Shown here: positions 4,538 through 63,183 of the stretch, piece after piece
How the letters are laid out: the number at the start of each line of letters is the position of its first letter
Position numbering within the stretch: the stretch's first letter is position 1
Source of the DNA: Streptomyces halstedii
Lineage (GTDB): Bacteria > Actinomycetota > Actinomycetes > Streptomycetales > Streptomycetaceae
Direction of reading: 5' to 3'
Assembly: GCA_000720535.1 (NCBI GenBank)
Contig: JOAZ01000006.1
Span: 296,744-360,743, forward strand
DNA length: 64,000 nucleotides
Made by a program: the position numbers and the translations under genes
The notes under the pieces: model-generated
The model's database searches: none
What the model was told of the DNA's origin: nothing
The model's input: the letters and a program-made list of their open reading frames with translations, nothing else

Positions 4538-4658
4538 ACGCCCCACGCTATGCACCAGCCTGCCGACTGTCGCTCCGTTTACGCCCCCGGCGCCCCGGCA
4601 ACGGCAACAGCCCGCCATCGCCCGCACCGCCCGGCCCCGCCGCGCTTCCGGGGCCGCC

Positions 4659-5627: not shown

Positions 5628-5681
5628 GGTGGCGGCTGGCCTTCCGGGCGGCGGGCGGAACCCGCCCCCCGGGGGATCGCC

Positions 5682-6368: not shown

Positions 6369-6470
6369 GCTGTTCCGTCCCCTCGGCCGGTGCGTCGGCA
6401 CACCGACACCGTGCATGGTGCCACTACGGAGGGTGTTCACGCAGGTGCTCTGTACCCGTTCGGCCCAAGA

Positions 6471-6476
6471 TAGGTT
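6471..6476 (+). promoter_or_regulatory. Possible -10 (TAGGTT) for a leaderless dtd transcript
   Basis: TAGGTT ends 7 bp before the dtd ATG and no purine-rich ribosome binding site precedes that start, as expected for a leaderless mRNA. No convincing -35 is seen. Confidence 0.4.
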
Positions 6477-6483
6477 GGTCTGT

Positions 6484-6933: not shown

Positions 6934-6960
6934 GCACACGCCGCACGTCAGCCACCCGCC

Positions 6961-7926
6961 TCACGGCTCGACGACGGTCTCCTGGGCGGCGGCCGTGTCA
7001 CCGGCGATCAGCTCCGCGTCCACGGGCACGTTCCGCTTCACCAGGGCCAGGGCGATGGGGCCCAGCTCGTGGTGGCGGGCGGACGTGGTGACGAAGCCGA
7101 GCTGGCGGCCTTCCTGGCCGTCGGCCGCCAGCCGCACCGGCGTCCCGTGGCCGGGCAGGTGCACCTCGCTGCCGTCCAGGTGCAGGAAGACCAGCCGGCG
7201 GGGCGGCTTCCCCAGGTTGTGGACGCGGGCGACGGTCTCCTGCCCCCGGTAGCACCCCTTCTGGAGGTGGACGGCGGTGCCGATCCAGCCCAGCTCGTGC
7301 GGGATGGTGCGGTGGTCGGTCTCGTACCCGACGCGCGGGCGGTGCGTCTCGACGCGCAGCGCCTCGTACGCCAGGATCCCGGCGGCCGGGCCGTGCCCGG
7401 CCGCGTACGCCTCCAGGCCGTCCCGGGACAGGAACAGGTCACGGCCGTGCGGGGTCTCCCGTACGGTGACGCCTTCCGGCACCTCGGCGATGGAACCGGC
7501 GGGCAGGTGCACGACGGCGATGTCCTCGGTGCGGTCGGCGACCTCGACCCGGTAGAAGAACTTCATCGACTCCAGGTACGCGATCAGCTCGCCCTGGGTG
7601 CCGGGTTCGACGTGCGCCCACACCGTCGTCCCGTCGTCCACCAGGTAGAGGGCGTGCTCGATGTGCCCGTTGGCGGTGAGGACCAACGCCTCGGTCGCCT
7701 GGTGGGGCGCGAGGTCGCTGACGTGCTGGGTGAGCAGCAGATGCAGCCACGCCAGCCGGTCGTCGCCGGTGACCGTGACGACGCCCCGGTGGGACAGGTC
7801 CACGAACCCGCTGCCGTCGGCGAGTGCGCGTTGCTCACGGAACAGGTCGCCGTAGTGCGCGGCGACACCTTCGTCGCGGCCCTCGGCGGGGACGGCGCCG
7901 GGCAGGGACAGCAGGGGGCTCTTCAT
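6961..7926 (-). CDS. ygfZ: Folate-binding protein YgfZ
   Basis: A 321-residue GcvT/YgfZ-fold protein needed for maintaining certain Fe-S enzymes. The diagnostic YgfZ motif KGCYRGQE (residues 223-230, with the reactive Cys225) is present. The N-terminus has the aminomethyltransferase-like FVDLSHRGVVTVTGDDRLAWL, and the C-terminus the short GcvT_C-like barrel. Start ATG at 7926. It is co-directional with nur just upstream (31 bp gap), so the two may be co-transcribed. Nothing unusual is seen. Confidence 0.9.
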   Translation of the reverse strand: MKSPLLSLPGAVPAEGRDEGVAAHYGDLFREQRALADGSGFVDLSHRGVVTVTGDDRLAWLHLLLTQHVSDLAPHQATEALVLTANGHIEHALYLVDDGTTVWAHVEPGTQGELIAYLESMKFFYRVEVADRTEDIAVVHLPAGSIAEVPEGVTVRETPHGRDLFLSRDGLEAYAAGHGPAAGILAYEALRVETHRPRVGYETDHRTIPHELGWIGTAVHLQKGCYRGQETVARVHNLGKPPRRLVFLHLDGSEVHLPGHGTPVRLAADGQEGRQLGFVTTSARHHELGPIALALVKRNVPVDAELIAGDTAAAQETVVEP

Positions 7927-7957
7927 GCCACCAGCGTACGACTCGCGCCGACGCGCC

Positions 7958-8407
7958 TTACGAGGCGGCCGACGGACCCTCCCCGGCCGCCTTGGCCGAG
8001 CAGTCGGCACACCGGCCGAAGATCGCGAAGTGCTTCATGTCCGTCTCGAAGCCGAAGGCGCCCCGCAGCTTCTCCGTGAAGTCCGCGACCACCTCGACGT
8101 CCGCCTCGATGACCTCGGAGCAGTCGCGGCAGACGAGGTGGATGTGGTGGTGGCGGTCGGCCAGGTGGTACGTCGGGGCGCCGTGCCCCAGATGCGCGTG
8201 GCTGACCAGGCCGAGCTCCTCCAGGAGCTCCAGCGTCCGGTAGACGGTCGAGATGTTCACACCCGACGCGGTCTTGCGCACCTCGCCGAGGATGTCGTCG
8301 GGAGTCGCGTGTTCCAGGGTGTCGACGGCCTCCAGAACGAGCTGGCGCTGGGGCGTCAGCCGATAGCCGCGCTGCCGGAGATCGGTCTTCCAGTCGGTGC
8401 TCACCAC
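7958..8407 (-). CDS. nur: Nickel-responsive Fur-family regulator Nur
   Basis: A 149-residue Fur-family repressor. The winged helix is at about residues 1-80 (GYRLTPQRQLVLEAV, NISTVYRTLELLEELGLV) and the dimer domain follows with HHHIHLVCRDC. All ligands of the S. coelicolor Nur structure are kept at the same numbers: His33, His86, His88 and His90 (nickel site) and His70, His72 and His126 (M-site). Nur with Ni represses sodF and nickel uptake genes and indirectly allows sodN expression. The GTG start gives MVSTDW, as in the known protein. No Nur box (TGCAA-N5-TTGCA) was seen in its own upstream region. Confidence 0.92.
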   Translation of the reverse strand: MVSTDWKTDLRQRGYRLTPQRQLVLEAVDTLEHATPDDILGEVRKTASGVNISTVYRTLELLEELGLVSHAHLGHGAPTYHLADRHHHIHLVCRDCSEVIEADVEVVADFTEKLRGAFGFETDMKHFAIFGRCADCSAKAAGEGPSAAS

Positions 8408-8536
8408 GCGCCCAGTGTAGGGCGGGACACGCGGTGGCCGTCGAGCCCCGCCCCGGGAGGGCCCGCCGGAGACCGAAGGGCCCGCCTGAACACCGAAGAA
8501 CCCGCTCGGCGCCGGAGGGGTCTGCTCGGGGTGGGC

Positions 8537-9109
8537 CTACTTGAAGAAGGCGATGCCGTCGTCGGGCATGTCACCGAGGCTCTTCGCCATCTCCGCGACC
8601 TCCTCGGGGGTGACGACCTTCTTCAGGTGCGCCGACATGTACGGCCGCAGCTCCACGTCGGGGGTGGCCTTCTCGCCGACCCACATCAGGTCGCTGTGCA
8701 CATAGCCGTAGAGCCGCTTGCCGCCGCTGTACGGGCCGGAGGCCGCGGTACGGGCGACCGCGTCGGTGGCGATGTCGATCTGCGGCTTCTGCTTGGCCAG
8801 CTCGCCGTACCAGACCTCGACGACGCCCTGGTCCCGGACCATGACGATCTCGACCTTGCGGTCCTTGTCCACGCGCCAGTAGCCGGACTCGCTCTCCAGG
8901 GGCTCGACCTTGTTGCCCTCGGCGTCCAGCACCCAGGAGTGCGAGACGTATTCGAGGAAGTCACGGCCGTCGTGGCTGAAGGTGACTTCCTGGCCGAAGT
9001 TGCACTTCTCGTCGCCGGGGAAGTCGAAGACGCCGGCGCCCGCCCAGTTCCCGAGGAGGAAGGACAGCGGTACGAGGTCCGGGTGGAGGTCGGACGGAAT
9101 CTCGATCAT
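8537..9109 (-). CDS. Nitrobindin-like heme-binding beta-barrel protein (FABP-like)
   Basis: A 190-residue protein of the THAP4/nitrobindin heme-binding beta-barrel family, often annotated FABP-family. It has the typical N-terminal pattern HPDLVPLSFLLGNWAGAG, where GxWxGxG closes the barrel, the middle strand FLEYVSHSW, and near the C-terminus YMSAHLKKV, whose His is the likely proximal heme ligand. Family members bind ferric heme and interact with NO or peroxynitrite. It lies between nur and a tiny membrane protein, all on the minus strand. The role here is inferred from the family. Confidence 0.85.
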   Translation of the reverse strand: MIEIPSDLHPDLVPLSFLLGNWAGAGVFDFPGDEKCNFGQEVTFSHDGRDFLEYVSHSWVLDAEGNKVEPLESESGYWRVDKDRKVEIVMVRDQGVVEVWYGELAKQKPQIDIATDAVARTAASGPYSGGKRLYGYVHSDLMWVGEKATPDVELRPYMSAHLKKVVTPEEVAEMAKSLGDMPDDGIAFFK

Positions 9110-9166
9110 GAGCGGCTCAGACGATCTGTGAGGGTGTACGGGAGCACGGGAGGCGTTCGGCGAGGG

Positions 9167-9268
9167 TCAGCGCTGGCCCTGGTACAGCTTCTTCACGGTC
9201 AGACCGGCGAAGGCGAGGACGCCGACGCAGACCAGGACCAGCAGAGCGGAGAAGAAAGCCTCAAGCAC
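9167..9268 (-). CDS. Tiny single-pass membrane protein (33 residues)
   Basis: A 33-codon gene starting at GTG 9268, 5 bp after GAGGAG. The protein is LEAFFSALLVLVCVG followed by more hydrophobic residues and a basic C-terminus KKLYQGQR, so it is one transmembrane helix with a cytoplasmic basic tail. The strong ribosome binding site, clean hydrophobic profile and high G/C at third positions support a real gene. Function is unknown; it could be a regulatory micropeptide of a membrane complex. It lies on the same strand as, and just upstream of, the nitrobindin-like gene. Confidence 0.7.
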   Translation of the reverse strand: MLEAFFSALLVLVCVGVLAFAGLTVKKLYQGQR

Positions 9269-9537
9269 GGGAGCTCCTCGGGACGACATGACGGCGGAAA
9301 CAGGGCCGGTCCCCAGCGTAATGGGTGGGGCCCGGCCGTGGCGGTCCGGGGTTTGCCCCGGGCCCGGTCGGCACGCGGATCCCGGCCCGGTCGGCACGCG
9401 CCCCCGGGCCCGGTCGGGCACACGACCCCGGGCCCGGTCGCCGCACGGGCACCGGCCCCTGTCCGGGGCGTTACCGGCCGTCCCCGGCGTACGCCGTCGC
9501 GAGGGAGACCGCGCACCGGAGGATTACAGTTCGGTCC

Positions 9538-9900
9538 ATGTCCAAGAAGCTCGTGATCAAGGTGACCGCCGGGGCCGATTCCGCCGAGCGCTGCTCGCAG
9601 GCCTTCACCGTGGCGGCCGTGGCCGTCGCCAGCGGGGTCGAGGTCTCGCTCTGGCTGACCGGCGAGTCCGCCTGGTTCGCCCTGCCGGATCGGGCGGCCG
9701 CGTTCGAACTGCCGCACTCGGCGCCGCTGCCCGATCTGATCGACGCGATCCGGGCGGGCGGCCGGATCACCCTCTGCACCCAGTGCGCGGCCCGGCGCGA
9801 CATCACGGAGAAGGACGTCCTGGAGGGCGTACGCATCGCCGGCGCCCAGGTGTTCGTCCAGGAGGCCATGGCCGACGGCACGCAGGCCCTCGTCTACTGA
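9538..9900 (+). CDS. DsrE-family protein
   Basis: A 120-residue DsrE/DsrF-fold protein. It opens KKLVIKVTAGADSAERCSQA and has the glycine turn SGVEVSLWLTGES. CTQCAARRDI supplies a CxxC-type pair that could carry persulfide or disulfide, and the C-terminus has GAQVFVQEAM. Family members act in sulfur relay, but many actinobacterial paralogues are uncharacterised. The ATG at 9538 follows TACAGT (9526-9531) by 6 bp without a ribosome binding site, consistent with a leaderless transcript. A 20-bp palindrome follows at 9926-9945. Confidence 0.8.
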   Translation: MSKKLVIKVTAGADSAERCSQAFTVAAVAVASGVEVSLWLTGESAWFALPDRAAAFELPHSAPLPDLIDAIRAGGRITLCTQCAARRDITEKDVLEGVRIAGAQVFVQEAMADGTQALVY

Positions 9901-9925
9901 CGGAAGCGGCGGAGATCCGCCAAAG

Positions 9926-10068
9926 CCCGTCCGGCGCCGGACGGGGCGTACGAGGACCGGCGCCGGACGGGCCGAGGACGGCCGTACGGGACCGGCGCCG
10001 GAGCGCCCCTCAGCGCGGGCGCCGGTCCTCGTACGGCCCGGCGCCGGTGCGCCCCTCAGCGCGGGCGC
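9926..10068. repeat. Palindrome, 18-bp inverted repeat and duplicated 3' end of the DUF3099 gene
   Basis: 9926-9945 is a perfect 20-bp palindrome (CCCGTCCGGCGCCGGACGGG) that could end the DsrE transcript. 9947-9964 and 10018-10035 are a perfect 18-bp inverted repeat. 9983-10022 nearly duplicates 10030-10068; the second copy contains the stop codon of the DUF3099 gene at 10056. The arrangement suggests a local duplication of that gene's 3' end. Confidence 0.8.
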
Positions 10069-10565
10069 TTCCTGCCGTCGAGCTCGTCCCACCACGCGTC
10101 GGACTGGGGGTCGCCGGTGCGCTGGGACCTCCCGTCGCGCGACCCGGCCTTCCCGTGGGGCGGTCCCGTCTTCCCCTCAGGCGGTCCCGTCTTCCCCTCG
10201 GGCGGTCCTGCCGCCCCCTGGGGTGGCTCCGCCTCTCCCCGGGTGCCTTCCCCGCTCCCGCCAGGCCGCCGCGCGTCCCCGCCGGGGCGGTCCGCGTCCT
10301 CGTCGGGGCGCGGTCTCTCGCCCGGACGGGGCCGGAAGCCGCCTGGCCGGGGCCGGGAGACCGGGGACGGATCGTCCCACCACCGGTCGTCCGGGCCACG
10401 CCGGTTGGCGACCACCGCGGCCACGGGTGGGATGACCATGGCCACCACGCACATCGCCACCGCCGCCGGAATCGACCAGAGCCGCACGAAGGCCCAGGCG
10501 GAGACGAAGAGTGCGAGGCAACCGCCCATCATCAGGAAGTAGGCGCGCCTTCGTCGGGCGTACAT
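10056..10565 (-). CDS. DUF3099-domain membrane protein
   Basis: A 169-residue protein. The first 60 residues match DUF3099: a basic start (YARRRRAYF), two transmembrane segments and the NRRGPDDRWWDDP tail motif typical of the family. The rest is disordered and repetitive, with PPEGKTG twice followed by PPHGKAG, rich in Pro, Gly, Arg and Asp, ending WWDELDGRKRPR. The function is unknown. Start ATG 10565. The collagen-like tail is longer than I would expect for the family, and the tail's DNA has been partly duplicated downstream. Confidence 0.8.
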   Translation of the reverse strand: MYARRRRAYFLMMGGCLALFVSAWAFVRLWSIPAAVAMCVVAMVIPPVAAVVANRRGPDDRWWDDPSPVSRPRPGGFRPRPGERPRPDEDADRPGGDARRPGGSGEGTRGEAEPPQGAAGPPEGKTGPPEGKTGPPHGKAGSRDGRSQRTGDPQSDAWWDELDGRKRPR

Positions 10566-10714
10566 GTCTTCCAGCGTAGGACCGGATCCGCTCCCCGGCA
10601 GCCCGCCGAGGACGGGCCGGGCAACACGAAGGGCCGCACCCGCTCAGGTGGCGTCCAACCCCCTGGGGTGCGGCCCTCCGGGCCGGGTCCGCGCGCACAC
10701 GCCGCGCGGACGCG

Positions 10715-11002
10715 CTACACGGCGATGGCGACCTCGGAGAGACCACCGGTCTGGGCCACGACCGTGCGGTCGGCGGTGCCGCCCGGAACCAGGGCGCGGA
10801 CCGTCCAGGTCCCCTCGGCCGCGTAGAAGCGGAACTGCCCGGTCGCCGAGGTCGGGACCTCGGCGGTGAACTCACCGGTCGAGTCCAGCAGCCGGACGTA
10901 GCCGGTGACGGGCTCGCCGTCGCGGGTCACGCTGCCCTGGATGGTCGTCTCGCCGGGCTTGATCGTCGAAGCGTCGGGGCCGCCGGCCTGTGCTCCACAC
11001 AT
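10715..11002 (-). CDS. sseC: DUF1416 protein SseC
   Basis: A 95-residue protein of DUF1416, called SseC in mycobacteria where it sits beside the CysA-type sulfurtransferase exactly as here. It starts CGAQAGGPDAS and shows a transthyretin-like or carboxypeptidase-regulatory beta-sandwich pattern (QGSVTRDGEPVTGYVRLLDS, TGQFRFYAAEGTWTVRAL). Cys2 is conserved. It lies 48 bp downstream of the sulfurtransferase gene on the same strand and is almost certainly co-transcribed. It presumably assists sulfur transfer; the biochemical role is not established. Confidence 0.85.
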   Translation of the reverse strand: MCGAQAGGPDASTIKPGETTIQGSVTRDGEPVTGYVRLLDSTGEFTAEVPTSATGQFRFYAAEGTWTVRALVPGGTADRTVVAQTGGLSEVAIAV

Positions 11003-44878: not shown

Positions 44879-44934
44879 GCTCGGACTGCTCGGTCCCGCT
44901 CGGACTGCTCGGTCCGCTCGGTCCCGCTCGGACT
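44879..44934. repeat. Six 9-10 bp tandem repeats overlapping the PAP2 stop codon
   Basis: GCTCGGACT and GCTCGGTCC(C) alternate six times; the last unit (44926-44934) includes the first two bases of the minus-strand stop codon of the PAP2 gene. Confidence 0.85.
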
Positions 44935-45661
44935 ACGCCGCGAGATCCTTCTCGCCGGGCGAGCCGCCCCGGCCCGGCCGCGGCTCGGGAATGCCGCGCG
45001 AATCGCCGCGCCCGTCGGCCCCGTCCAGGACCGGCCGCCGCGAGCGGACCAGCCAGCCGGCCGAACCGGAGCGTGCCACCGCGCCCATGAGGGGCGTCAG
45101 CAGCATCATCGCGAGCGGCGCGAGAAGCAGGGCCACCGCCGTACCGAGCGCGAAGCCCCCGATGACGTCGGTCGGGTAGTGCACACCCATGTAGATGCGG
45201 CAGAAGCCCTCCAGCACCGCCAGCACCAGCGCGATCAGGCCGAACTTCCGGTTGGCCACGAACAGCCCCACCGCGATCGCCATCGCCATCGTGGCGTGGT
45301 CACTGACGAAGGAGAAGTCCTCCTTGCCCTGCACCAGGACTTCGAGCCCCTGGTGGTCGTTGAACGGGCGCGGCCTCTCGACGAACCCGCGGATCGGAAT
45401 GTTGATGATCAACGCGATCCCGGCCGCGAGCGGCGCCCACACGAGTCCGGCGACCGCGGTCACCGAATCCTCGGTCGTCCCGCGTCGGCGTACGCTCCAC
45501 CAGCACCACAGGCCGACCAGGACCATGCCGAACATGATCCCGTACTCACCGACGAACTCCATGACCCGGTCGAACCAGGTAGGAGCGGCTTTCGCCAGCC
45601 CATTGATGTCGTAGAGCAGGCTGACGTCGGGGTTCGACCCATCGAGTGCGAGTCCAGCCAT
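44933..45661 (-). CDS. PAP2-family lipid phosphatase
   Basis: A 242-residue membrane phosphatase with five or six transmembrane helices. The PAP2 motifs are present in order: VERPRPFNDHQ (KxxxxxxRP-like, with R-P), FSFVSDHATMAM (PSGH equivalent, here SDHAT) and YMGVHYPTDVIGG (SRxxxxxHxxxD equivalent). The last 40 residues are charged and cytoplasmic. It may dephosphorylate undecaprenyl pyrophosphate (BcrC-like) or phosphatidate. ATG 45661 chosen with AAGGGG 9 bp upstream; a GTG 39 bp further upstream is an alternative. Confidence 0.88.
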   Translation of the reverse strand: MAGLALDGSNPDVSLLYDINGLAKAAPTWFDRVMEFVGEYGIMFGMVLVGLWCWWSVRRRGTTEDSVTAVAGLVWAPLAAGIALIINIPIRGFVERPRPFNDHQGLEVLVQGKEDFSFVSDHATMAMAIAVGLFVANRKFGLIALVLAVLEGFCRIYMGVHYPTDVIGGFALGTAVALLLAPLAMMLLTPLMGAVARSGSAGWLVRSRRPVLDGADGRGDSRGIPEPRPGRGGSPGEKDLAA

Positions 45662-45961
45662 CTCCTGCGGCCCCTTGCCTTGTCTGCTGCCGCGACGCAC
45701 AGCGGCGTGCGTCGCCTTGGTCGGACCCCCGTGATCGGTGCGGATCCCCTCACGCGTGACACCGTGGTGCCGTGACGCGTGACCGCTCTGGCCAGTGCCG
45801 CATGGTCAGTGCGCATGCTGTACCAGTCCAGGGAACGGTCTGGCGGCCCGTTGCGTTCCGCTCTCCACCGAATGATCACCATGACGTTATCGAAGAGAGA
45901 CTCGTCGTCGCAGCTCAGGGCCCGGTCTTTACGGAGAGTTCCAGCCATGGCCGACTCCCCG
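45662..45961. other. Region between the PAP2 gene start and the wall-hydrolase gene end
   Basis: About 300 bp upstream of the PAP2 gene. CACGCGT (45751-45757) and ACGCGTG (45775-45781) flank a smaller internal CACC/GGTG dyad, giving a 31-bp partial palindrome about 90 bp upstream of the PAP2 start that might be a regulatory site. A minus-strand frame (MAGTLRKDR...) runs out of phase into the PAP2 gene and is not supported as a gene. Confidence 0.4.
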
Positions 45962-46966
45962 TCAGCTCTGCGGCAGCGCGGTCGGAAGCGCCGCCGCCCC
46001 GTCCTCGGTGACCCTGGTCGCGCCGAAGTAGTCGGGCGTGTCGATCTTGTCGAACCGGATGACCGCCCCGGTGTACGGCGCGTTGATCATGTACCCGCCG
46101 CCGACGTAGAGGCCCACGTGCCTGATGGTCCGGGAGTTGGTCAGATCGTCGGAGAAGAACACCAGGTCGCCGGGGAGCAGCTCGTCCCGCGAGGGGTGCG
46201 GCCCGGCGTTGTACTGGTCGTTGGCCACCCGGGGCAGCTCGATGTCGACGGTCCGGTACGCGGCCTGCGTCAGCCCGGAACAGTCGAACCGGCCGTCCTG
46301 GTCGGCCGTGCCGTTCCCACCCCAGAGATAGGGCGTACCCAGCTTCTTCTGCGCGAAGTAGATGGCCCCGGCGGCCTGCCGGGAGGGCGAGACCCGTCCG
46401 ACCGGCTCGGCGAAGCTCTTCTCCAGCGAGCGGATGATCTTGACGTAGTTCTGGGTCTCGCTGATCGCGGGGACCCCACCGGACTTGATCACCCGGTAGG
46501 CCCCGGCGTTGTAGGCGGCGAGCATGTTGTTGGTCGGATCGCCCGGCACCTTCTTGACGTACCCGGCGAGTTCGCAGTCGTACGAGGCCGCGGACGGGAT
46601 CGCGTCCGCCGGGTTCCATACGTCCCGCTCACCGTCGTCGTCCCCGTCGATGCCGTGCGCGGCCCAGGTGCCGGGGATGAACTGTGCGATGCCCTGCGCG
46701 GCGGCAGCGCTCTGGGCACGCGGGTTCCAGCCACTTTCCTGGTACAGCTGTGCGGCGAGGAGGGCGGGGTTGATGGCGGGGCAGAGGTTGCCCCACTTCT
46801 CCACGATGGGCTTGTACTGAGCGGGCACCGCCCCCTTGGCCAGCCCGACCGCCCCGCTCACCCCGGCCATGCCGGCGGCGGCGGAGTACGTCCCCACGAC
46901 GAGCAGAGCGATGAAGCACAGGCCGAGCCCGAACGCACCGCCGACGAACACCCAGTATTTCCGCAC
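45962..46966 (-). CDS. VirB1-like wall hydrolase: lytic transglycosylase plus NlpC/P60
   Basis: A 334-residue exported protein. A membrane anchor (about residues 4-28) is followed by an SLT domain with catalytic Glu in AAQLYQESGWNP, GIAQFIPGTW and MLAAYNAGAYRV, and then an NlpC/P60 domain with Cys in RFDCSGL, His in TIRHVGLYVG and polar Asn in MINAPY. It would cut peptidoglycan glycan and peptide bonds. This pair of domains is used by Gram-positive conjugation systems. In S. coelicolor its homologue lies next to the cmd cluster; here it is 9 kb away. Start GTG 46966; ATG 46984 is possible. Confidence 0.85.
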   Translation of the reverse strand: MRKYWVFVGGAFGLGLCFIALLVVGTYSAAAGMAGVSGAVGLAKGAVPAQYKPIVEKWGNLCPAINPALLAAQLYQESGWNPRAQSAAAAQGIAQFIPGTWAAHGIDGDDDGERDVWNPADAIPSAASYDCELAGYVKKVPGDPTNNMLAAYNAGAYRVIKSGGVPAISETQNYVKIIRSLEKSFAEPVGRVSPSRQAAGAIYFAQKKLGTPYLWGGNGTADQDGRFDCSGLTQAAYRTVDIELPRVANDQYNAGPHPSRDELLPGDLVFFSDDLTNSRTIRHVGLYVGGGYMINAPYTGAVIRFDKIDTPDYFGATRVTEDGAAALPTALPQS

Positions 46967-47065
46967 GCACCAACCATCCCCCATCCGGGCGGGGTTCACG
47001 TGCCGATTCGCTGGTGTGTACGGACGGGTGGGTGCATGAGGGGGCGTCAGGGGCGGCTACGGGGG

Positions 47066-55270: not shown

Positions 55271-55880
55271 CCGGCCGGGCCCGCGCCGGAACCCCTCCGT
55301 CGGCGGCCGGCTGAGCCCCTCCCTCTTCCGCGCGTCACGCCGCGCGCGGGGCCAAGGTCCGGCTGTCGCGGCCGGCCGGCGACCGGCACGCCGACGGCGA
55401 CATCGAGGTGCCGCCGGACCGCGGCCGACGAAGGAAGGACGAGCGGTCGTTCGCCGAGTAGTCCGGGCCGGCCGCGGGCGAGGCCGACCGAAGGGGCGGC
55501 GGGGCCCCACCCCGAGCCGCTCCGCCCCTCCCCGGCCCGCGCCCTGACGGGGCGTCGGCCGGGAGCCACCGGCGCACTCCCGGCTCCCGAACGGCGCGGA
55601 CGGACAGCCGCCACCCGCCCAACGCCGCAACCGGGCTGATAATCCATGGCCACTGTCGTTGCTAACCGTCACTGAGCGTGATACACAGAGTAACCATGCA
55701 TGGGCACGCAGATCCGTACGTGAGCCGCACGTCAGAGCGGTCGCACCGGTCAAACGTGCGAGATTCGGGTAAAGAGACCCCGGAAGGCGTCGTGCGACGG
55801 CGGTTTCATCAGCGAAGATAGAAGGCGACCCGTTCCGTACGGCGCGGGCGGCGAACTACCCAACAGGGGCGGTGACTTAC
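55271..55880. other. Long gap before the cmd operon, with a possible gene remnant and BldD-like site
   Basis: About 610 bp. 55351-55461 has a short open stretch ending KDERSFAE and a stop with good third-position G/C but no start, a possible gene remnant. TCACTGAGCGTGA at 55669-55681 fits the TNAC-N5-GTNA pattern of BldD sites and lies about 200 bp upstream of the first cmd gene. The sequence from 55640 to 55760 is poorer in G+C, as promoters usually are. Confidence 0.45.
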
Positions 55881-56189
55881 ATGATCCTGGCAGCTGAAAA
55901 GGGCGACATCACCACCATCATCGGCGGAATCGCCCCGAACTGGGGGCCGTTCGGGACCCTGGGCAACGAGGCTCGCATCATGATCGAGGTGGTGATGGCG
56001 GTAGCCATTCTGCTCTGCCTCGGCATCGCGATCTGGGGGGCGGCCAAGCAGCGCATCGGGGCGACGGCCCTGCGTGACACGTTCAGCGCGGAACAGGGCA
56101 AAGGCCTGATCGTGGCGGGCCTGACCGGCGTCTTCATCATCGGGTCGCTGGGAACGCTCTTCACCATCGTCTACGGGATGGCAGTCTGA
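55881..56189 (+). CDS. cmdF: CmdF-like small two-helix membrane protein (VirB2/TrbC-like)
   Basis: A 102-residue membrane protein. After a short start (ILAAEKGDITTIIGGIAPNW) come two transmembrane helices (VVMAVAILLCLGIAIWGAAK, GLIVAGLTGVFIIGSLGTLF), the layout of TrbC/VirB2 pilin-type proteins but without a cleavable signal. First gene of the six-gene cmd operon that, in S. coelicolor, affects differentiation and antibiotic production when deleted. ATG at 55881 rather than the GTG at 55872 because GGGGCGG is better placed. Confidence 0.8.
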   Translation: MILAAEKGDITTIIGGIAPNWGPFGTLGNEARIMIEVVMAVAILLCLGIAIWGAAKQRIGATALRDTFSAEQGKGLIVAGLTGVFIIGSLGTLFTIVYGMAV

Positions 56190-56377
56190 GCGCCCGTCAG
56201 CCCGTTCGCCCCGGGCCCGTCCCCGTTCCCCGCCCGCCTCCACCCATCCGTCCGTAGTGCCCACCGGCAGAGGTTGCGTCCCCTGATGTCGAGTCACCAC
56301 TCCGCGCCCACGCGGGAACCAGCACGGCTACCGTCGTACCAGGCGGCACCGCACACGGCTGAGGGGGCGTACGCGGC

Positions 56378-57247
56378 ATGAGCCACGGCGACGAGCGTGA
56401 CTACAGGAGCGAACCGGGGCCCCGTACGGAGGACCCGTACAGCACCATCGGCGGTACACGCCAGACACGGACCCGCCTCCCCGGCGACGACAACGACGGC
56501 TACGGCCGCCGGCCCGTACGGAACACCCGCTCGCTGGCGATGGTGGTGGGCGTCGTCGTCCTGCTGATCGCGGCCATCGCCCTCGCGAACCTGGGCGGCG
56601 GCGAGGGCAAGGGCTCGGGAGCAAACGGCGGCGGCAAGGACTCCGCCACGGCCGGAACGGGCCCCACGGCCGCCACGGGCACGAAGCCGGTCCAGGGCAA
56701 GAACGGCACGATCGCCGCGGGCTTCGCCCACGACGAGCAGGGGGCCCAGAGCGCGGCGGCGAACTACGCGGTGGCGCTGGGGTCGGCGGAGATGTTCGAC
56801 AAGGCACAGCGCGACGCCATCCTCGACGCGATCATCGCTCCCGCATCCGTCGAACGCTTCCGTACCACTCTGGACACCGCCTACTCGCCCGGCTTCTTCG
56901 CCAACCTCGGCCTCAACGACGACGGTACTGCGCCCGCCGGCTTCACCTTCATCTCACGCACCACCCCGGTGGGCACCAAGGTGGTGAAGGTGGCCGACGG
57001 CCGCACCACCGTCGATGTCTGGTGCACAGGGCTGATCGGCCTGGCGGGGGAGGGGTCGACCAAACCGGTCACAGACGGATGGTTCACCATCACAACGGAA
57101 CTGGAATGGGTCGAAGGGGACTGGAAAATCGTGACTCATTCCCAGAAGGACGGTCCTGCCCCCGTAGACGGCGACAGTCGGGCGTCCAGCGCCGAGGAAA
57201 TCGCCGGCGCTGTCAACGGGTTCGGAGGGTTCACCTATGCCCGGTAG
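56378..57247 (+). CDS. cmdE: CmdE-like bitopic membrane protein (VirB8/TcpC-like)
   Basis: A 289-residue protein with a charged cytoplasmic N-terminus (1-52), one transmembrane helix (LAMVVGVVVLLIAAIALANL, about 53-72), a Gly/Lys-rich linker and an extracytoplasmic domain of about 160 residues (SAAANYAVALGSAEMFDKAQ, TGLIGLAGEGSTKPVTDGWF, TTELEWVEGDWKIVTHS). The NTF2-like tail W..V..DWK is that of VirB8/TcpC proteins. It ends in an 11-bp overlap with the next gene. Part of the T4SS-like cmd operon. Confidence 0.8.
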   Translation: MSHGDERDYRSEPGPRTEDPYSTIGGTRQTRTRLPGDDNDGYGRRPVRNTRSLAMVVGVVVLLIAAIALANLGGGEGKGSGANGGGKDSATAGTGPTAATGTKPVQGKNGTIAAGFAHDEQGAQSAAANYAVALGSAEMFDKAQRDAILDAIIAPASVERFRTTLDTAYSPGFFANLGLNDDGTAPAGFTFISRTTPVGTKVVKVADGRTTVDVWCTGLIGLAGEGSTKPVTDGWFTITTELEWVEGDWKIVTHSQKDGPAPVDGDSRASSAEEIAGAVNGFGGFTYAR

Positions 57248-58577
57248 CTCTCATCGTGCCGTCAAGGCTCTCGGCCTTGTACTGGCCGTTCTGCCTGCCC
57301 CCATGCTCCTGCTCGCCACACGTGCTGCGGCCGCGCCCACCCCGACTCCCGGCCCGAGTACCAGCAACAACCCCTGTGACCTCATCTACGGCGCTGCGAA
57401 GGACTACTGCGAGGACGGTGAAGGCGGCGCCCAACGCCGCACCCCCACCACCACCGACGACGCCCTGGACCCCCTCTCCTCCCTCGCCCGCGGCTGTGCC
57501 GACGCCGCGTCCTGGACCGTCAAGAAGCTCAGCGAGGCCGTCGAGGGCACCGCCAACGTCGACTTCACCAACCCCACGTTCCGCCAGCAGTACGCCATCG
57601 TGTTCGCCGCCTCCACCGTCCTGACCCTCGTCCTGTGGCTCTTCGCCGTGGCCAAGCGGGCGATCCGCGGGGTCCCGCTCACCACCGCGATCTCCGAGGC
57701 CGTCGGCTTCCTCTGGCTGACCGTGCTCGCCTCCGCCTTCACCCCGCTCATCCTCTACGTGGTCGTGTCCGCCACCGACGGCGTGACCTCGGTCATCTCC
57801 TCCGCCACCGGGGCCGACAGCGACGTCTTCTTCGGTTCCTTCGCCGAGGCGCTCAAGAAGGGCACCGACATCGGCGGCGGCCCGATCATGCTGATCATCG
57901 TCTCGCTCGTCTCGGTACTCGCCGCCGGCATCCTCTGGCTGGAACTGGTCATCCGGGCCGCCTTGTTGTACGTGGGCGCCCTGCTCGGCGTCATCGTGTA
58001 CGCGGGCCTGGTCGACAAGAACATGTGGGGCCACGTCCGCCGCTGGGCGGGCATCATGATCGCCGTGATCATGGTGAAGCCGGTCATCGTCATCGTGCTC
58101 GGACTGGCCGGCGCGCTCGCCGAGGACGACGGGCCGAACGCCATGTCCGCCGTCGTCTCCGGACTCGCCATCATCCTGCTGGCCATCTTCGCCTCGGCGA
58201 TGATCTACCGCTTCGTGCCCGGTTTCGGCGACGAGATCCAGGGCGCCCGTACCAACCGCAAGCAGGCCACGGACGGCTCCCAGGCAGCCGCGATGATCAG
58301 TTCGCCCGCCGCGCTCGTCTCCCAGGGCATCAAGACCCACAGCGGCCGCGGCGGCGGGGACGGCGGCGGTGGCGGCGGTGGCGGGGGCGGGCGACCGGCC
58401 AACCCGGTCAGCGGCGGTGTGGCCGCCCACAGCTCCCGCGGCACCGGCGGATCCGGCGCCACACCCGCGCCCCGCGGGTCCGGGCCCACCTCCGGCACCC
58501 CCCACAGCAGCCGCTCCTCCCGAGGTGGCGGTTCCGGCAGCACAGGCAGCACGAGCACAGGAGGTGGCGGGCGTTGA
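57237..58577 (+). CDS. cmdD: CmdD-like polytopic membrane protein (VirB6/TrbL-like)
   Basis: A 446-residue membrane protein with a signal peptide (ALGLVLAVLPAPMLLLATRA) and six or so transmembrane helices between about residues 120 and 335 (QQYAIVFAASTVLTLVLWLF, MLIIVSLVSVLAAGILWLEL, MIAVIMVKPVIVIVLGLAGA). The C-terminus is a Gly/Ser-rich tail of about 90 residues (GGGDGGGGGGGGGG). The arrangement resembles VirB6/TrbL. It overlaps the gene before it by 11 bp and the next by 4 bp (TTGA). Confidence 0.82.
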   Translation: MPGSSHRAVKALGLVLAVLPAPMLLLATRAAAAPTPTPGPSTSNNPCDLIYGAAKDYCEDGEGGAQRRTPTTTDDALDPLSSLARGCADAASWTVKKLSEAVEGTANVDFTNPTFRQQYAIVFAASTVLTLVLWLFAVAKRAIRGVPLTTAISEAVGFLWLTVLASAFTPLILYVVVSATDGVTSVISSATGADSDVFFGSFAEALKKGTDIGGGPIMLIIVSLVSVLAAGILWLELVIRAALLYVGALLGVIVYAGLVDKNMWGHVRRWAGIMIAVIMVKPVIVIVLGLAGALAEDDGPNAMSAVVSGLAIILLAIFASAMIYRFVPGFGDEIQGARTNRKQATDGSQAAAMISSPAALVSQGIKTHSGRGGGDGGGGGGGGGGRPANPVSGGVAAHSSRGTGGSGATPAPRGSGPTSGTPHSSRSSRGGGSGSTGSTSTGGGGR

Positions 58578-60124
58578 CGACCCAGTCCCACACCATCGCA
58601 TCCCGCCGTACGTATCTGATCGGCCGCGCCCGGCCGAACGCGATCGTCGGCAAGAACCGCGAGACGGGCGAGATCGCCCTGATCATCGGCGGGGCGTTCC
58701 TCGGCATGATGAGCGGGCTCCTCGTCCCGGTCCTCTCCCTGCGGATCGTGACGCTCGTCGGCTTCCCCATGCTGGCCCTGGCCGTCGTGTACTTCCCCTA
58801 CAAGGGGCGCACCTTCTACAAGTGGTTCGAGATCAACCGCAGCTTCAAGCGCTCCCTGCGCCGGGGCACCGCCTACCGTTCCGCCGCCATGGAAGCGGGC
58901 GTGGGGGCGGACGGCCGTGAGGTCGAGATCGGGCCGCCCCCGGGCATCGGCCGCATCAGCTGGCTCGCCGCACCCTTCGGACCCGACGAGATCGCCGTAC
59001 TCCTGCACGCCGACCGGCGCACGGTGACCGCCGCCATCGAGATCGAGGGCCCCGGAGTCGGCCTGCGCGACAGCGAGGACCAGGAAGCCCTGGTCGACCG
59101 GTTCGGCACCCTGCTCAAGCACGTCGCCAACGGCGACGGCTTCGTCACCCGCCTCCAGATGCTGGCGCGCACCCTGCCCGCCGACCCCGACGCCCACGCC
59201 AAGGACGTCGCCCAGCGCGGCGACCACGGCGCGCCCGGCTGGCTGCGGGACTCCTACGACCAGTTGCAGTCCATGGTCTCCACCTCCAGCGAGCAGCACC
59301 GCGCCTACCTCGTCGCCTGTATGCACTACAGCCGTGAGCTGGCCGCCGAGGCCAACGCCATGGCCCGCGCCGCCCGCCCCCGCAGCGGGCGCAAGCTCGA
59401 CCGCGACGCCGGACTCGCCGTCGTCATGGCCCGCGAGCTCACCGACATCTGCGCACGGCTGGCCGAGGCGGACATCCGCGTGCGCCAGCCGCTCGGACAG
59501 AGCCGGCTGGCCTCCCTCGTCCACTCGATGTACGACCCCGACCACCCCATCGACCACATCCAGGCGATGACCAAGCGCAACGCCTGGCCCGCCGAACTCG
59601 ACGCCGTCGAACCGACGTTCCTCCAGGCCAAGACCCGCGAGTCGACGACCCGCGCCCCCTGGTGCCACGCCACGGCCTGGGTGAAGGAGTGGCCGATGAC
59701 CCCCGTCGGCGTGAACTTCCTGGCCCCGCTGCTCGTCCACACCCCCGACGTGATCCGCACGGTCGCCGTCTGCATGGACCTCGAACCCACCGAGATCGCC
59801 ATCGAGCGGATGCTGACCGAGAAGACCAACGACGAGGCCGAGGCCAGCCGCCAGGCCAAGATGAACCGTACGATCGACCCCCGTGACATCGCCGCCCACG
59901 GCCGGCTCGACCAGCGGGGTGAAGATCTGGCCAGCGGAGCGGCCGGGGTGAACCTGGTGGGGTACATCACCGTGTCGTCCCGCTCCCCCGAAGCCCTCGC
60001 CCGCGACAAGCGGACGATCCGGGCCTCCGCCGGCAAGTCGTACCTCAAGCTCGAATGGTGCGACCGCGAGCACCACCGCGCCTTCGTGAACACCCTGCCG
60101 TTCGCCACCGGCATCCGCCGCTGA
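58574..60124 (+). CDS. cmdC: CmdC-like SCO6880-family protein (VirB3 plus VirB4 N-terminal domain)
   Basis: A 516-residue protein starting at TTG 58574 after GGAGGTGG, coupled to the previous gene. The N-terminal 85 residues hold two transmembrane helices (GEIALIIGGAFLGMMSGLLV, IVTLVGFPMLALAVVYFPYK), like VirB3/PrgI. The remainder is cytoplasmic and resembles the non-ATPase N-terminal half of VirB4 (GRISWLAAPFGPDEIAVLLH, STTRAPWCHATAWVKEWPMT). The Walker motifs are in the next gene. It was called SCO6880-family in databases, from memory. Confidence 0.8.
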   Translation: MTTQSHTIASRRTYLIGRARPNAIVGKNRETGEIALIIGGAFLGMMSGLLVPVLSLRIVTLVGFPMLALAVVYFPYKGRTFYKWFEINRSFKRSLRRGTAYRSAAMEAGVGADGREVEIGPPPGIGRISWLAAPFGPDEIAVLLHADRRTVTAAIEIEGPGVGLRDSEDQEALVDRFGTLLKHVANGDGFVTRLQMLARTLPADPDAHAKDVAQRGDHGAPGWLRDSYDQLQSMVSTSSEQHRAYLVACMHYSRELAAEANAMARAARPRSGRKLDRDAGLAVVMARELTDICARLAEADIRVRQPLGQSRLASLVHSMYDPDHPIDHIQAMTKRNAWPAELDAVEPTFLQAKTRESTTRAPWCHATAWVKEWPMTPVGVNFLAPLLVHTPDVIRTVAVCMDLEPTEIAIERMLTEKTNDEAEASRQAKMNRTIDPRDIAAHGRLDQRGEDLASGAAGVNLVGYITVSSRSPEALARDKRTIRASAGKSYLKLEWCDREHHRAFVNTLPFATGIRR

Positions 60125-60182
60125 CCCGCCGACCGCGCGCACCGACCGTACAGACCAAACCGAGAGGGAGGGCAGTCACGCC

Positions 60183-61601
60183 ATGCGAGACCCGCTGTCC
60201 GCGTTGTCGGACGCCTTCACCGCCTTCCTCTTCGGGAAGGTGGAGACGACCCGGCTGCCGGTCCGTACGTCGACGGGCCAGGCCCAGGCCGTCTACCTGC
60301 CGACCGCCGCGCCCGGCCTCGGTGACTCCGGCGTGATCATCGGACGCGAGGTGTACTCCGGCAAGGGCTACATCTACGACCCGTTCCAGCTGTACGGCCA
60401 GCAGCTCCCCGCACCCCACTGGCTGGTCCTCGGCGAGTCCGGCAACGGCAAGTCCGCGCTGGAGAAGACCTATGTGCTCCGCCAGCTCCGCTTCCGTGAC
60501 CGCCAGGTCGTCGTCCTGGACGCCCAGGGCGAGGACGGCGTCGGCGAGTGGAACCTCATCGCCCAGGAACTGGGTATAACCCCCATCCGCCTGGACCCGA
60601 CCGCCGCGCTGAACGACGGGATCCGGCTCAACCCCCTCGACCCGACGATCACCACCACCGGCCAGCTCGCCCTGCTCCGCACGATCATCGAGGTCGCGAT
60701 GGGACACGGCCTCGACGAGCGCTCCGGCTTCGCGCTCAAGGTCGCCCACGCCTACGTCAACGAGACCATCACCGACCGGCAGCCCGTCCTGATGGACATC
60801 GTGGAACAGCTCCGCCACCCGGAGCCCGAGTCCGCCGAGGCGATGAACGTCGATCTGGACGACGTACGGGCCTGGGGGCTGGACGTCGCCCTCGTCCTGG
60901 ACCGCCTCGTCGACGGTGACCTGCGCGGCATGTTCGACGGCCCGACGACCATCGGCATCGACCTCGACGCACCGCTGATCGTGTTCGACCTCTCGCACAT
61001 CGACCGCAACTCCATCGCGATGCCCATCCTCATGGCCATCGTCGGCGTGTGGCTGGAACACACCTGGATCAGGCCCGACCGGAAGAAGCGCATCTTCCTG
61101 GTCGAGGAGGCCTGGCACATCATCAACTCCCCGTTCGTCGCCCAGCTCTTCCAGCGCCTGCTGAAGTTCGGCCGACGGCTCGGCCTGTCCTTCGTCGCCG
61201 TCGTCCACCACCTCAGCGACGTCGTCGACGGCGCGGCGGCCAAGGAGGCGGCGGCCATCCTGAAGATGGCGTCCACCCGCACCATCTACGCCCAGAAGGC
61301 GGACGAGGCCAGAGCCACCGGCAAGGTCATCGGCCTGCCCCGGTGGGCGGTCGAGATCATCCCGACGCTGACCCCCGGTATCGCCGTCTGGGACGTCAAC
61401 GGCAACGTCCAGGTCGTCAAGCACCTGATCACCGAAGCGGAACGCCCCCTGGTCTTCACCGACCGCGCCATGACCGAGGGCTCCGCACCGGACCTGCTCC
61501 CCGACGACGTACGGGCCGCGGAGCTGGAGGCGGAGGAGCGGGCGGCCAGGATCGAGCGCCAGCAGCGGCTCGCCCAGTCCTCCGAGTCGACGGTGGCCTG
61601 A
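60183..61601 (+). CDS. cmdB: CmdB-like VirB4-type ATPase
   Basis: A 472-residue AAA-type ATPase, the motor half of VirB4. Walker A GESGNGKSALEK lies at residues 84-95, Walker B in RIFLVEEAWHIINSPF, and the later motifs are FGRRLGLSFVAVVHHLSDVV and KMASTRTIYAQKADEA typical of VirB4/TraC C-terminal domains. The preceding gene provides the missing N-terminal half, so VirB4 is split. In S. coelicolor the homologue was described as the ATP/GTP-binding member of cmd. ATG at 60183 after GAGAGGGAGGG. Confidence 0.87.
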   Translation: MRDPLSALSDAFTAFLFGKVETTRLPVRTSTGQAQAVYLPTAAPGLGDSGVIIGREVYSGKGYIYDPFQLYGQQLPAPHWLVLGESGNGKSALEKTYVLRQLRFRDRQVVVLDAQGEDGVGEWNLIAQELGITPIRLDPTAALNDGIRLNPLDPTITTTGQLALLRTIIEVAMGHGLDERSGFALKVAHAYVNETITDRQPVLMDIVEQLRHPEPESAEAMNVDLDDVRAWGLDVALVLDRLVDGDLRGMFDGPTTIGIDLDAPLIVFDLSHIDRNSIAMPILMAIVGVWLEHTWIRPDRKKRIFLVEEAWHIINSPFVAQLFQRLLKFGRRLGLSFVAVVHHLSDVVDGAAAKEAAAILKMASTRTIYAQKADEARATGKVIGLPRWAVEIIPTLTPGIAVWDVNGNVQVVKHLITEAERPLVFTDRAMTEGSAPDLLPDDVRAAELEAEERAARIERQQRLAQSSESTVA

Positions 61602-61602
61602 C

Positions 61603-63183
61603 ATGGCACGCCCGGCACCGTCCCGTACGGAGCGCGGCGGCGAGGGCCGGGCAGGCGGCATCCCGGACGGCCTGCTGATAGGTCTCCTGATCTTCCTGTT
61701 CGGCCTGACGGTCCTGGCCTGGACGGCCACCGGGCTGGCCGGGCTGCTCTCCCACGGCGCCTGGCCGGACGGCGTGACGTTCACCCGGACCCCGCTGGCC
61801 CTGCGCGCCCTGGCCGTCGCCCCGCAGGACCTCCCCGCCGCCTGGCCCGACACCCCGGAGGACGCACTGTCCGGGTACGGGCTGTTCTGGGGCCTGTTCA
61901 TCGGCGAGCTCATGGTGCTGGCCGTGCTGACCTTCTTCGTCCTCGGCGTGGTGACCCGCTGGCGCCTGGTCCGCCGCCGACGCGCGGCGGAGGCGGCGGA
62001 AGCGACGGCCGCACCGGCCGGGGCGGCGACGGAGACGGCCTACGAGCAGCAGCCGTCCGTACACGCACCCGCCGCCGTACCCGAGTCGCGCCCCCGAACG
62101 GCACCTCTGCCGACGCCCGTGCCCGTGCCTGCGTCCGAAGCGCCACCGACCGTGCCCGCGCCCGCGCCCGAAGCACCACCGACCGTGCCCCTGTCCGTGC
62201 CGTCCGCGGCCGCGACCACACGTGCGGCGGTGCCCGTCCCCTCGCCCAGGGCGCCGGCCCTCCTCTACGGCACCGCCGCCACCCGGCGCCCCACCGCCGT
62301 CCAGGCCGTCCAGGACGCCGAGGGCCCCGCCCTGGTCGTGACCTCCGACCCCACGCTCTGGGCCGAGACGAAGGACGCCCGCGCCAAGCTCGGCCCGGTC
62401 CTCGTCTACGACCCCGGCCACCTCTGCGACACCCCGGACCGCCTGCACTGGTCGCCCACCGCCGGCTGCGAGGACCCGGCCACCGCGTCCGCACGGGCCG
62501 CGGCCCTCCTCGCCCCGGTCCGTCCCCGGGCCCGGGCCGACGCGGCCGTCGCCGACACCGCCCAGACGCTCCTCCAGTGCTGGCTGCACGCGGCGGCCGT
62601 GGACGGCCGACCCTTCCGCCAGATCCATCGCTGGGCCTCCGGAGGCAGCGCCCATGAACCGGTGCGCCTGCTGCGTACGCACCCCAAGGCCGCCTCCGGG
62701 CTCGCCGGGCTCCTGGAGTCCGCGCTCACCGCGTATCCCGAACGCCGTGAGGTCGCACAGGACCTGACGGCCCGTGCCTTCACCGCGCTCTCCTCGGTCC
62801 ACATCCGCGAGGCCTGCACCCCCCACCGAAACGACGCGCTCCTGCTGGAATCTTTCGCCCCCGAAGGGGGAACGCTTTACGTGGTGGGTGAACCCATCGA
62901 GGATCCCCGTCACCGCCCCGGCGCGATGCCCCTCCTCACGGCGCTGGCCTCGCACGTGGTCGAGCACGGCCGCCGCATGGCCGCACGGTCACCCGACGGT
63001 CGGCTCGACCCACCAATGGCCCTCGTCCTCGACGACGTCGCAGCGGTGGCCCCGCTCCCCCAGCTCCCCGAGCTGCTGAGGACCGGCCAACACCGGGGGA
63101 TGCCCGCCCTGGTCCTGCTCCGTTCCCAGGAACAGGCCCGGTCCCGCTGGCAGGACACCCTCACCGCCCCGGAACACTCCTGA
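61603..63183 (+). CDS. cmdA: CmdA-like VirD4/TraG-type coupling protein with degenerate P-loop
   Basis: A 526-residue membrane protein. Two transmembrane helices (about residues 20-45 and 98-122) precede an Ala/Pro-rich linker and a cytoplasmic TraG/VirD4-like domain: ALVVTSDPTLWAETKDARAK, PVLVYDPGH, and late VLDDVAAVAPLPQLPELLRT and LVLLRSQEQARSRW. Where coupling proteins have GxxGxGKS, this has LLYGTAATRRPTAV with no Lys-Ser, and the Walker B is D-D rather than D-E. It probably no longer hydrolyses ATP. It ends the operon. Confidence 0.82.
   Translation: MARPAPSRTERGGEGRAGGIPDGLLIGLLIFLFGLTVLAWTATGLAGLLSHGAWPDGVTFTRTPLALRALAVAPQDLPAAWPDTPEDALSGYGLFWGLFIGELMVLAVLTFFVLGVVTRWRLVRRRRAAEAAEATAAPAGAATETAYEQQPSVHAPAAVPESRPRTAPLPTPVPVPASEAPPTVPAPAPEAPPTVPLSVPSAAATTRAAVPVPSPRAPALLYGTAATRRPTAVQAVQDAEGPALVVTSDPTLWAETKDARAKLGPVLVYDPGHLCDTPDRLHWSPTAGCEDPATASARAAALLAPVRPRARADAAVADTAQTLLQCWLHAAAVDGRPFRQIHRWASGGSAHEPVRLLRTHPKAASGLAGLLESALTAYPERREVAQDLTARAFTALSSVHIREACTPHRNDALLLESFAPEGGTLYVVGEPIEDPRHRPGAMPLLTALASHVVEHGRRMAARSPDGRLDPPMALVLDDVAAVAPLPQLPELLRTGQHRGMPALVLLRSQEQARSRWQDTLTAPEHS

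Follow-up and report, generated by a model that had tools for sequence, protein, structure and literature searches.

The cmd operon of Streptomyces halstedii: a chromosomal type IV secretion-like cluster with a putatively degenerate coupling protein and a VirB1-like wall hydrolase nearby

The stretch of Streptomyces halstedii DNA considered here (hereafter, the window) comprises 64 kb at the end of a 360.7 kb contig in a genome of 7.74 Mb. At positions 55881-63183 it carries six co-oriented open reading frames, the orthologues of cmdF, cmdE, cmdD, cmdC, cmdB and cmdA, in the order and on the strand given by the initial annotation, in which they were described as an operon related to type IV secretion systems (T4SS). 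All six frames are open, and relatives of each are found in other genomes. These genes and two further features of the locus are the following.

55881-56189, plus strand: cmdF, a small protein of 102 amino acids with two hydrophobic segments (alternative GTG start at 55872), VirB2-like by size, topology and position only.
56378-57247, plus strand: cmdE, VirB8-like, with one transmembrane helix (residues 51-70) and an NTF2-like domain.
57237-58577, plus strand: cmdD, a polytopic membrane protein, putatively VirB6-like.
58574-60124, plus strand: cmdC, two N-terminal transmembrane segments (a VirB3-like position) followed by a domain like the N-terminal one of VirB4.
60183-61601, plus strand: cmdB, a VirB4-type ATPase that retains its Walker motifs, A as GESGNGKS (residues 84-91) and B as LVEEAW.
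61603-63183, plus strand: cmdA, VirD4/TraG-like, lacking the Walker A lysine and the Walker B glutamate, a putative pseudo-coupling protein.
45962-46999, minus strand: VirB1-like wall hydrolase gene, with one membrane anchor, an SLT lytic transglycosylase domain and an NlpC/P60 (C40) peptidase domain.
55659-55694, plus strand: conserved promoter-like block upstream of cmdF, consisting of TTGC..., a spacer of about 17 bases and TGATACACA.

The frames of cmdE and cmdD overlap by 11 bases and those of cmdD and cmdC by 4, a single base lies between cmdB and cmdA, and the larger gaps are those between cmdF and cmdE (188 bases) and between cmdC and cmdB (58 bases). The promoter-like block, read as such by eye, is seen in 12 of the 14 aligned Streptomyces regions upstream of cmdF. 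The identity with the cmd cluster of S. coelicolor, stated in the initial annotation, is borne out by the gene order and by two mutagenic cmdB primers of the 2009 paper, which translate to ESGNG-SALE and VQVV-HLIT, both present in the CmdB of the window; the Walker A lysine is residue 90 here, a number found in PMC2782261 as well. The labels K90A and K404A of the primers in the Methods of that paper look swapped, the 'K404A' pair spanning the Walker A stretch with Lys90 of the window.

The genes cmdABCDEF (SCO4126-4131) of S. coelicolor were reported by Xie et al. in 2009 (PMC2782261) to be co-transcribed, and their mutants showed delayed aerial growth, branching and collapsed hyphae, with overproduction of actinorhodin in the cmdB, cmdD, cmdE and whole-cluster mutants. 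The deletion of cmdA alone gave no apparent difference in sporulation, while the other nulls seemed to give fewer spores. CmdB was located in the membrane, its conserved-lysine mutants did not complement, and a role in sporulation was reported for three species, namely S. coelicolor and two further ones. The transfer of an SLP2-derived plasmid was not significantly changed by cmd deletion. A phenotype like that of the cmd mutants was not seen in nulls of SCO6878 and SCO6881 (unpublished data of those authors). Together, the phenotypes and the unchanged plasmid transfer speak for the developmental role that the initial annotation supposed. The same paper pointed out the similarity of CmdB to VirB4 and raised the idea of a type IV-like channel, so that the cluster, the need for it in sporulation, the VirB4 similarity and the channel idea are all already known. 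Elsewhere, CmdE (SCO4130) is listed as a glycoprotein (PMC6593405), and Streptomyces is mentioned for TraB-mediated transfer in a 2025 review of T4SS (PMC12857230).

The VirB4 ATPase of a monoderm T4SS is represented at the locus by two proteins. CmdB matches the Pfam families AAA_10 (8.8e-14) and TraG P-loop (1.1e-7), as well as models of the VirB4/TraC type; its Walker A motif is identical in all 61 loci compared, and its identity across the order is 80-97%. CmdC matches the SCO6880 family at 4.9e-55, above the curated cut-off, and in a Foldseek search with its structural model (mean predicted local distance difference test score, pLDDT, of 51) ranks 1-4, 6 and 7 were taken by R388 TrwK/VirB4 entries, at expectation values (E) of 0.027-0.25; no match of this low-confidence model to solved structures fell below E 0.001. 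The T4SS ancestry stated in the initial annotation is well supported. The splitting of VirB4, which was singled out there, does exist as CmdC and CmdB, but is no peculiarity of the window, since the plasmid relatives described below share it. The ratios of nonsynonymous to synonymous substitution rates (dN/dS) in six pairs of loci are 0.025-0.067 for CmdB and 0.06-0.11 for CmdC; the set includes over-extended frames for CmdA of L097/L098 and for CmdD of L129/L130 (L, G, f and g being working labels of loci, genomes, families and genera). CmdB is in two pieces in the genomes G051, G329 and G377, where sequencing or assembly faults may be responsible. Other VirB4-like loci occur in the same genome as the window (L005, at 2944-10883; L006; L007), and one of them has an SLT-C40 hydrolase gene together with genes like cmdD, cmdC and cmdB.

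As for the envelope parts, the VirB8-like nature of CmdE suggested by the initial annotation was upheld by an AlphaFold model, in which one transmembrane helix is followed by an NTF2-like domain (mean pLDDT of 90 or more in the blocks of residues 111-260). The Foldseek matches with E below 0.05 include the VirB8 domains of PrgL, an IcmL-like T4SS protein, OrfG, CagV, VirB8 and the conjugation protein 3ub1, with target-normalised TM-scores of about 0.2 to 0.7, the fold being common also to other, higher-ranking proteins. The plasmid counterparts of CmdE match at E 3e-51 to 2e-33, and those of CmdD at 9e-87 to 3e-49; CmdD has six hydrophobic peaks and a match to the SCO6881 family (1.2e-7) that is far below the curated cut-off. 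CmdF has 49 invariant positions among 26 sequences, has homologues encoded by the opening gene of three plasmid clusters (E 2e-25 to 2e-22 among 19 proteins) and shows a dN/dS of 0-0.036 in five pairs and of 0.217 in one. Size, a pair of hydrophobic segments and the order of the genes make the assignments of CmdF to VirB2 and of the CmdC N-terminus to VirB3, given in the initial annotation, plausible, while no profile match was obtained for either. The membership of CmdF in a known pilin family was considered and dropped, no family match being present in Pfam, NCBIfam, PHROG or the sequences of PDB, and a comparison of the CmdE and CmdC sequences with PDB gave nothing useful.

The last gene of the operon departs from the initial annotation, in which it was taken for a VirD4-like protein. 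The states of CmdA were counted over 133 distinct loci (141 minus 8 duplicates): a motor-like domain is present in 84, the membrane part only in 5 (g6 and g9), none is found in 38, and 6 are cut by contig ends. Among the 84 loci with the motor-like domain, GK[ST] stands at the P-loop in one (G-x4-GKS in L109, assigned to Wenjunlia tyrosinilytica because it is identical to the named locus L204) and the 'DE' pair of Walker B in none; the representative of f2 has GPARSGKA at the P-loop. Both GK[ST] and DE are kept in all 12 coupling proteins used for comparison, three of which come from plasmid clusters and nine were found in 11 further loci. The best Pfam coupling-protein matches are 4e-23 and 1e-24 for two plasmid proteins against 2e-8, 4e-7, 5e-4 and 6e-3 for four CmdA, that of the window having 5e-4 and, with another model, 1e-3 or worse. 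No cmdA is present at the operon in the 14 of 14 f3 loci examined, where cmdB and cmdC remain, nor in the one g19 locus, the three g18 loci and the 20 of 20 named loci that group with g18 by CmdB identity (92-97%), of which 13 are named Kitasatospora. Seven of eight g18 (Kitasatospora-type) genomes had no CmdA-like match anywhere at E 0.001. On the tree, these states amount to three losses and one truncation, the position of g19 having a support of 0.70.

Thus, by its motifs and distribution, CmdA is well supported as a degenerate coupling protein whose coupling function would have been lost, and the functional coupling ATPase of conjugative T4SS appears to be missing from cmd, through the loss of the motifs or of the whole gene. 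The dN/dS of the whole cmdA gene is 0.25-0.36 in five pairs and 0.49 in a sixth, which has an over-extended frame; for the C-terminal part, division of the pairwise values gives about 0.20 and 0.24 in two pairs. A relocation of CmdA in f3 was considered, as several f3 genomes have an unlinked relative of about 34% identity. It was read as belonging to another element, because in G020 the distance of the relative is 34 kb to a MOBF relaxase and 0.74 Mb to cmdB, and because the f3 example L138, the one in which the motifs were checked, keeps them. A 27% match with an intact P-loop in one of the eight g18 genomes was read likewise. Seven loci named Streptomyces or Saccharothrix (L151, L157, L160, L161, L165, L166 and L169), in which CmdB groups with Kitasatospora and CmdA is absent, probably bear old names.

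A wall hydrolase, the VirB1-like part of monoderm T4SS, is provided by a gene outside the interval of the operon, 8.9 kb from cmdF on the minus strand, with Pfam matches to NLPC_P60 (5.6e-25) and SLT (2e-15) at 45980-46984 within the longer frame listed above. It is 49% identical to the hydrolase of SLP2 and 47% to that of pMDJK44.2, both having the same two domains. In most genera, the hydrolase divergently adjoins cmdF. Among 128 loci with a CmdF match (duplicates included, some of them short of upstream sequence, and with 13 of 141 loci excluded for want of such a match), a relative is directly divergent from cmdF in 83, including f2, f10, most f3 loci with a CmdF match and all 19 named g18-type loci with one. 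Eleven matches are of another class (farther, with overlapping frames, or weak), 10 loci have no upstream room, and in 24 no hydrolase matched although more than 1.5 kb was available; of these, one is g6 and 23 are from the window's genus or bear the name Streptomyces (in one case 'Actinobacteria bacterium'). When Streptomyces genomes were searched, the hydrolase was found in 10 of 10, with 72-80% identity to the copy in L131, and in these genomes it lies 1-19 kb from cmdF (distances by arithmetic), in divergent orientation.

Going by the protein type and by the numbering of SCO4132 beside cmdF, the hydrolase of the window is probably the orthologue of tgdA (SCO4132) of S. coelicolor, which is described as a putative secreted lytic transglycosylase and whose mutants overproduce actinorhodin equally to the cmdBCDEF mutants (PMC6585502). 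The suggestion of protein or wall-related export in the initial annotation gains support in its wall part from this gene, which was not linked there to the operon, while standard coupling-protein-driven export is unlikely, as CmdA is either absent or devoid of both Walker motifs. The gene adjoining the hydrolase in the same orientation (44933-45700, minus strand) resembles, by eye, one for a PAP2 phosphatase, and a similar neighbour is seen in other genera.

The distribution of the core was followed in three samples. All 61 genomes of the family sample (17 genera; the name Streptomycetaceae is taken from named loci) have CmdB, as do 98 of the 99 in the order sample, and these counts, with the low dN/dS of CmdB and CmdC, agree with the description of the cluster in the initial annotation as an intact core, not a decaying element. 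A loss of the core in G385, where CmdB seemed to be absent, was rejected, for CmdC sits there 50 bases from the contig end. In a class-wide sample of 246 genomes, 68 match CmdB at 1e-40; outside the window's genus, only G096 is close (78%), and the other 45 are about 31-37% identical. The tree of CmdF, CmdD, CmdC and CmdB, rooted on G096, follows families and genera, with some weak inner nodes (one of 0.02). The mobile, patchy distribution expected of a conjugative element is not seen for cmd, and an intact and vertically inherited core is supported by these comparisons.

In six genomes of f20 (L236-L241), a second chromosomal cluster has genes like cmdE, cmdD, cmdC and cmdB in the same order, the CmdB-like protein being 31-32% identical, with no coupling-protein, CmdF or SLT-C40 match in the surrounding 15-16 kb in all six and with a small gene just upstream in L236. 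Eighteen f20 genomes of the class-wide sample have such a CmdB match at E 1e-40. The cluster, which lies within 45 kb of the contig start in two genomes, possibly represents a parallel domestication.

Relatives were found in 197 plasmid records, the first ten of which have 40-49% identity. The three plasmid clusters examined, L147 (NZ_CP109145), L148 (pMDJK44.2) and L150 (NZ_CP108308), all from Streptomyces/Actinacidiphila, resemble cmd in that homologues of CmdF, CmdE, CmdD, CmdC and CmdB are arranged alike and a coupling protein comes next, and differ from it in being plasmid-borne and in that the motifs of this protein are intact. SLP2 (L149) is a more distant relative than these three. Both L148 and SLP2 have, like cmd, an SLT-C40 hydrolase upstream, whereas in L147 and L150 the place of the hydrolase is taken by a divergent gene for an M23 peptidase. 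Mobility typing gave MOBF for pMDJK44.2 and non-mobilizable for the two others and for SLP2, despite which SLP2 genes are needed for conjugal transfer (PMC2782261). The absence of a relaxase, stated in the initial annotation for the window, extends to other genomes for the families PF08751 and PF03432: in none of 20 genomes does the contig with cmdB have a match at a distance of 90 kb or less from this gene. Elsewhere in these 20, PF08751 occurs in 9 and PF03432 in 11, neither is found in six, and the nearest to cmdB is at 91 kb (G047). On the contig of the window, neither family has a match, cmd standing at the contig end with that side open.

On these grounds it is considered rather probable that cmd is a chromosomally fixed ('domesticated') core of a monoderm-type T4SS, which would work without a coupling ATPase, driven by CmdB alone, in the envelope of growing aerial hyphae. 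CmdB, CmdC, a protein of the VirB8-like fold, a polytopic protein, a small two-helix protein and a VirB1-like hydrolase are seen, at the level of genes, to be kept together across the order; their role in the envelope is our interpretation. In the proposed mechanism, the hydrolase would open the wall, CmdF, CmdE and CmdD would form a membrane channel or a short filament, and the CmdC-CmdB ATPase would drive the insertion or movement of subunits, the likeliest 'cargo' being the CmdF subunit itself or a wall factor exported by Sec. Since there appears to be no active coupling protein, the standard recruitment of DNA or proteins from the cytoplasm as substrates is improbable, and an action in the envelope of aerial hyphae would entail the branching, septation and chromosome defects of the mutants.

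Several observations weigh against this interpretation. The cmdB and cmdA-F mutants had 6-8% anucleate spores, which could mean a direct role in DNA handling (PMC2782261). In the same work, actinorhodin was not overproduced in the cmdC and cmdF mutants, in contrast to a 2019 screen listing SCO4127-4131 together (PMC6585502), and its authors caution that the CmdB lysine mutants may have been unstable. In the accessible sections of the cmd literature, no observation of a filament or channel was found, nor does any of the four collections named above support CmdF as a pilin. The top three fold matches of CmdE are NTF2-like domains of the plastid division proteins ARC6/PARC6, and the CmdC model is too poor to prove a fold, so that only the ranking of its matches was used. 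CmdB itself could move a substrate. The dN/dS of CmdA overlaps that of CmdE (0.14-0.34) and of CmdD (0.19-0.39), meaning that CmdA, where it remains, does not evolve as a free pseudogene, is under selection and may have a non-ATPase role. Mobility typing calls the two closest of the examined plasmid clusters non-mobilizable, so that descent from a conjugative plasmid is argued from homology, and the relaxase scan covered two families.

The anucleate spores also speak for the suggestion of the 2009 authors that CmdB and CmdC are an FtsK-like DNA motor, which clears or segregates chromosomes at sporulation septa while the other proteins form a pore, and the membrane location of CmdB and the RecA/FtsK-like fold predicted by those authors agree with it (PMC2782261). 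However, the delayed aerial growth, the branching and the collapse of hyphae would not be expected from a motor for segregation alone, a site in the envelope is indicated by the conserved hydrolase and the VirB8-like part, and it is the DNA-coupling protein that decays; this explanation seems unlikely. Next after it, and also doubtful, is a T4SS exporting specific developmental proteins with CmdA as a non-ATPase substrate adaptor, which is close to the initial annotation. The T4SS ancestry, the purifying selection on the retained CmdA and the persistence of its membrane part in g6 and g9 would suit such an adaptor, but CmdA is gone from the operon in Kitasatospora-type loci, in g19 and in 14 of 14 f3 loci with CmdB and CmdC kept, and in S. 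coelicolor no sporulation phenotype was apparent after cmdA deletion (PMC2782261).

A Ced-like importer, that is, a relaxase-free VirB4/VirB6/VirB2 machine for the uptake or exchange of chromosomal DNA, is very improbable: the reduced list of parts is similar in archaeal Ced/Ted (PMC9905601) and CmdB matches the CedB model weakly (E 4e-4, well short of the cut-off), but the known phenotypes are developmental and the SLP2-derived plasmid was transferred as before after cmd deletion (PMC2782261). That the cluster is a chance-conserved remnant of an integrated conjugative element, for which its homology with plasmid clusters might be cited, is scarcely tenable and already contradicted by its occurrence throughout the family and order samples, the low dN/dS of CmdB and CmdC, the tree that follows taxonomy and the published mutant phenotypes.

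If cmd is indeed a domesticated core, it would be a conjugation machine that became a developmental organ and whose conversion can be followed step by step in living species, the core and the hydrolase being kept and the coupling motor decayed, and it would offer a natural test of what a VirB4 ATPase is capable of without VirD4. The interpretation gives the cmd phenotype of 2009 a testable mechanism and fits both the cmdA deletion without an apparent sporulation defect (PMC2782261) and the matching antibiotic phenotype of the neighbouring transglycosylase gene (PMC6585502). A wider proposal, possible and held with distinctly less confidence, is that a whole order of spore-forming hyphal bacteria has a fixed, relaxase-free T4SS core without a working coupling protein and with its own hydrolase, which would assemble CmdF into a channel or filament that crosses the aerial hyphal wall in development, as a monoderm counterpart of archaeal Ced in which the DNA-feeding part is being lost in parallel in several lineages.

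Among the known systems, the cmd cluster of S. coelicolor has the same six genes as the window, but the accessible sections of PMC2782261 contain no VirB8, VirB3 or VirB1 assignment and no decay of CmdA, and do not join the transglycosylase gene to the cluster. A paralogue of the SCO6871-6884 type, present in the window's own genome (contig C30, L005; the equivalence is a presumed one), has SCO6880/SCO6881-like and VirB4-like genes and an SLT-C40 hydrolase upstream, but its CmdB relative is 36% identical and such matches occur in only a part of the order sample. Archaeal Ced/Ted are likewise domesticated chromosomal machines of the VirB4/VirB6/VirB2 type without a relaxase; they differ in importing DNA and in being induced by ultraviolet light in Sulfolobales, and no VirB8-like or VirB1-like part is named in the accessible text (PMC9905601). 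Brucella VirB and Bordetella Ptl are protein export systems of diderm bacteria. Like cmd, these two lack a coupling protein homologue, according to PMC12102498, in which the T4SS of Patescibacteria are also described as chromosomal, lineage-wide, monoderm-type and mostly without a relaxase; the latter differ from cmd in the common, mostly unlinked VirD4 homologues and in the epibiont life of their hosts. In the open literature, as judged by titles and the beginnings of abstracts and with subscription papers outside the scope, neither the decay of CmdA nor a hydrolase joined to cmd as a T4SS is described. Hence, what appears to be new is the putative degeneration of the coupling protein CmdA, the 80-97% identity of CmdB across the order, the VirB1-like gene tied to cmd, and the nearest relatives on plasmids having intact coupling proteins, with no relaxase of the two families nearby.

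Two minor features of the layout may be added. In the g3 loci of f3 (L082, L083 and L085-L088), about 220-280 additional bases between cmdD and cmdC leave space for a small gene. Downstream of cmdA, convergent ribosomal RNA genes were found in three of five loci searched (L123, 12797-16416; L124, 12868-14325; L127, 16299-16407), which is the probable reason why the window and many contigs stop 1-2 kb past cmdA.

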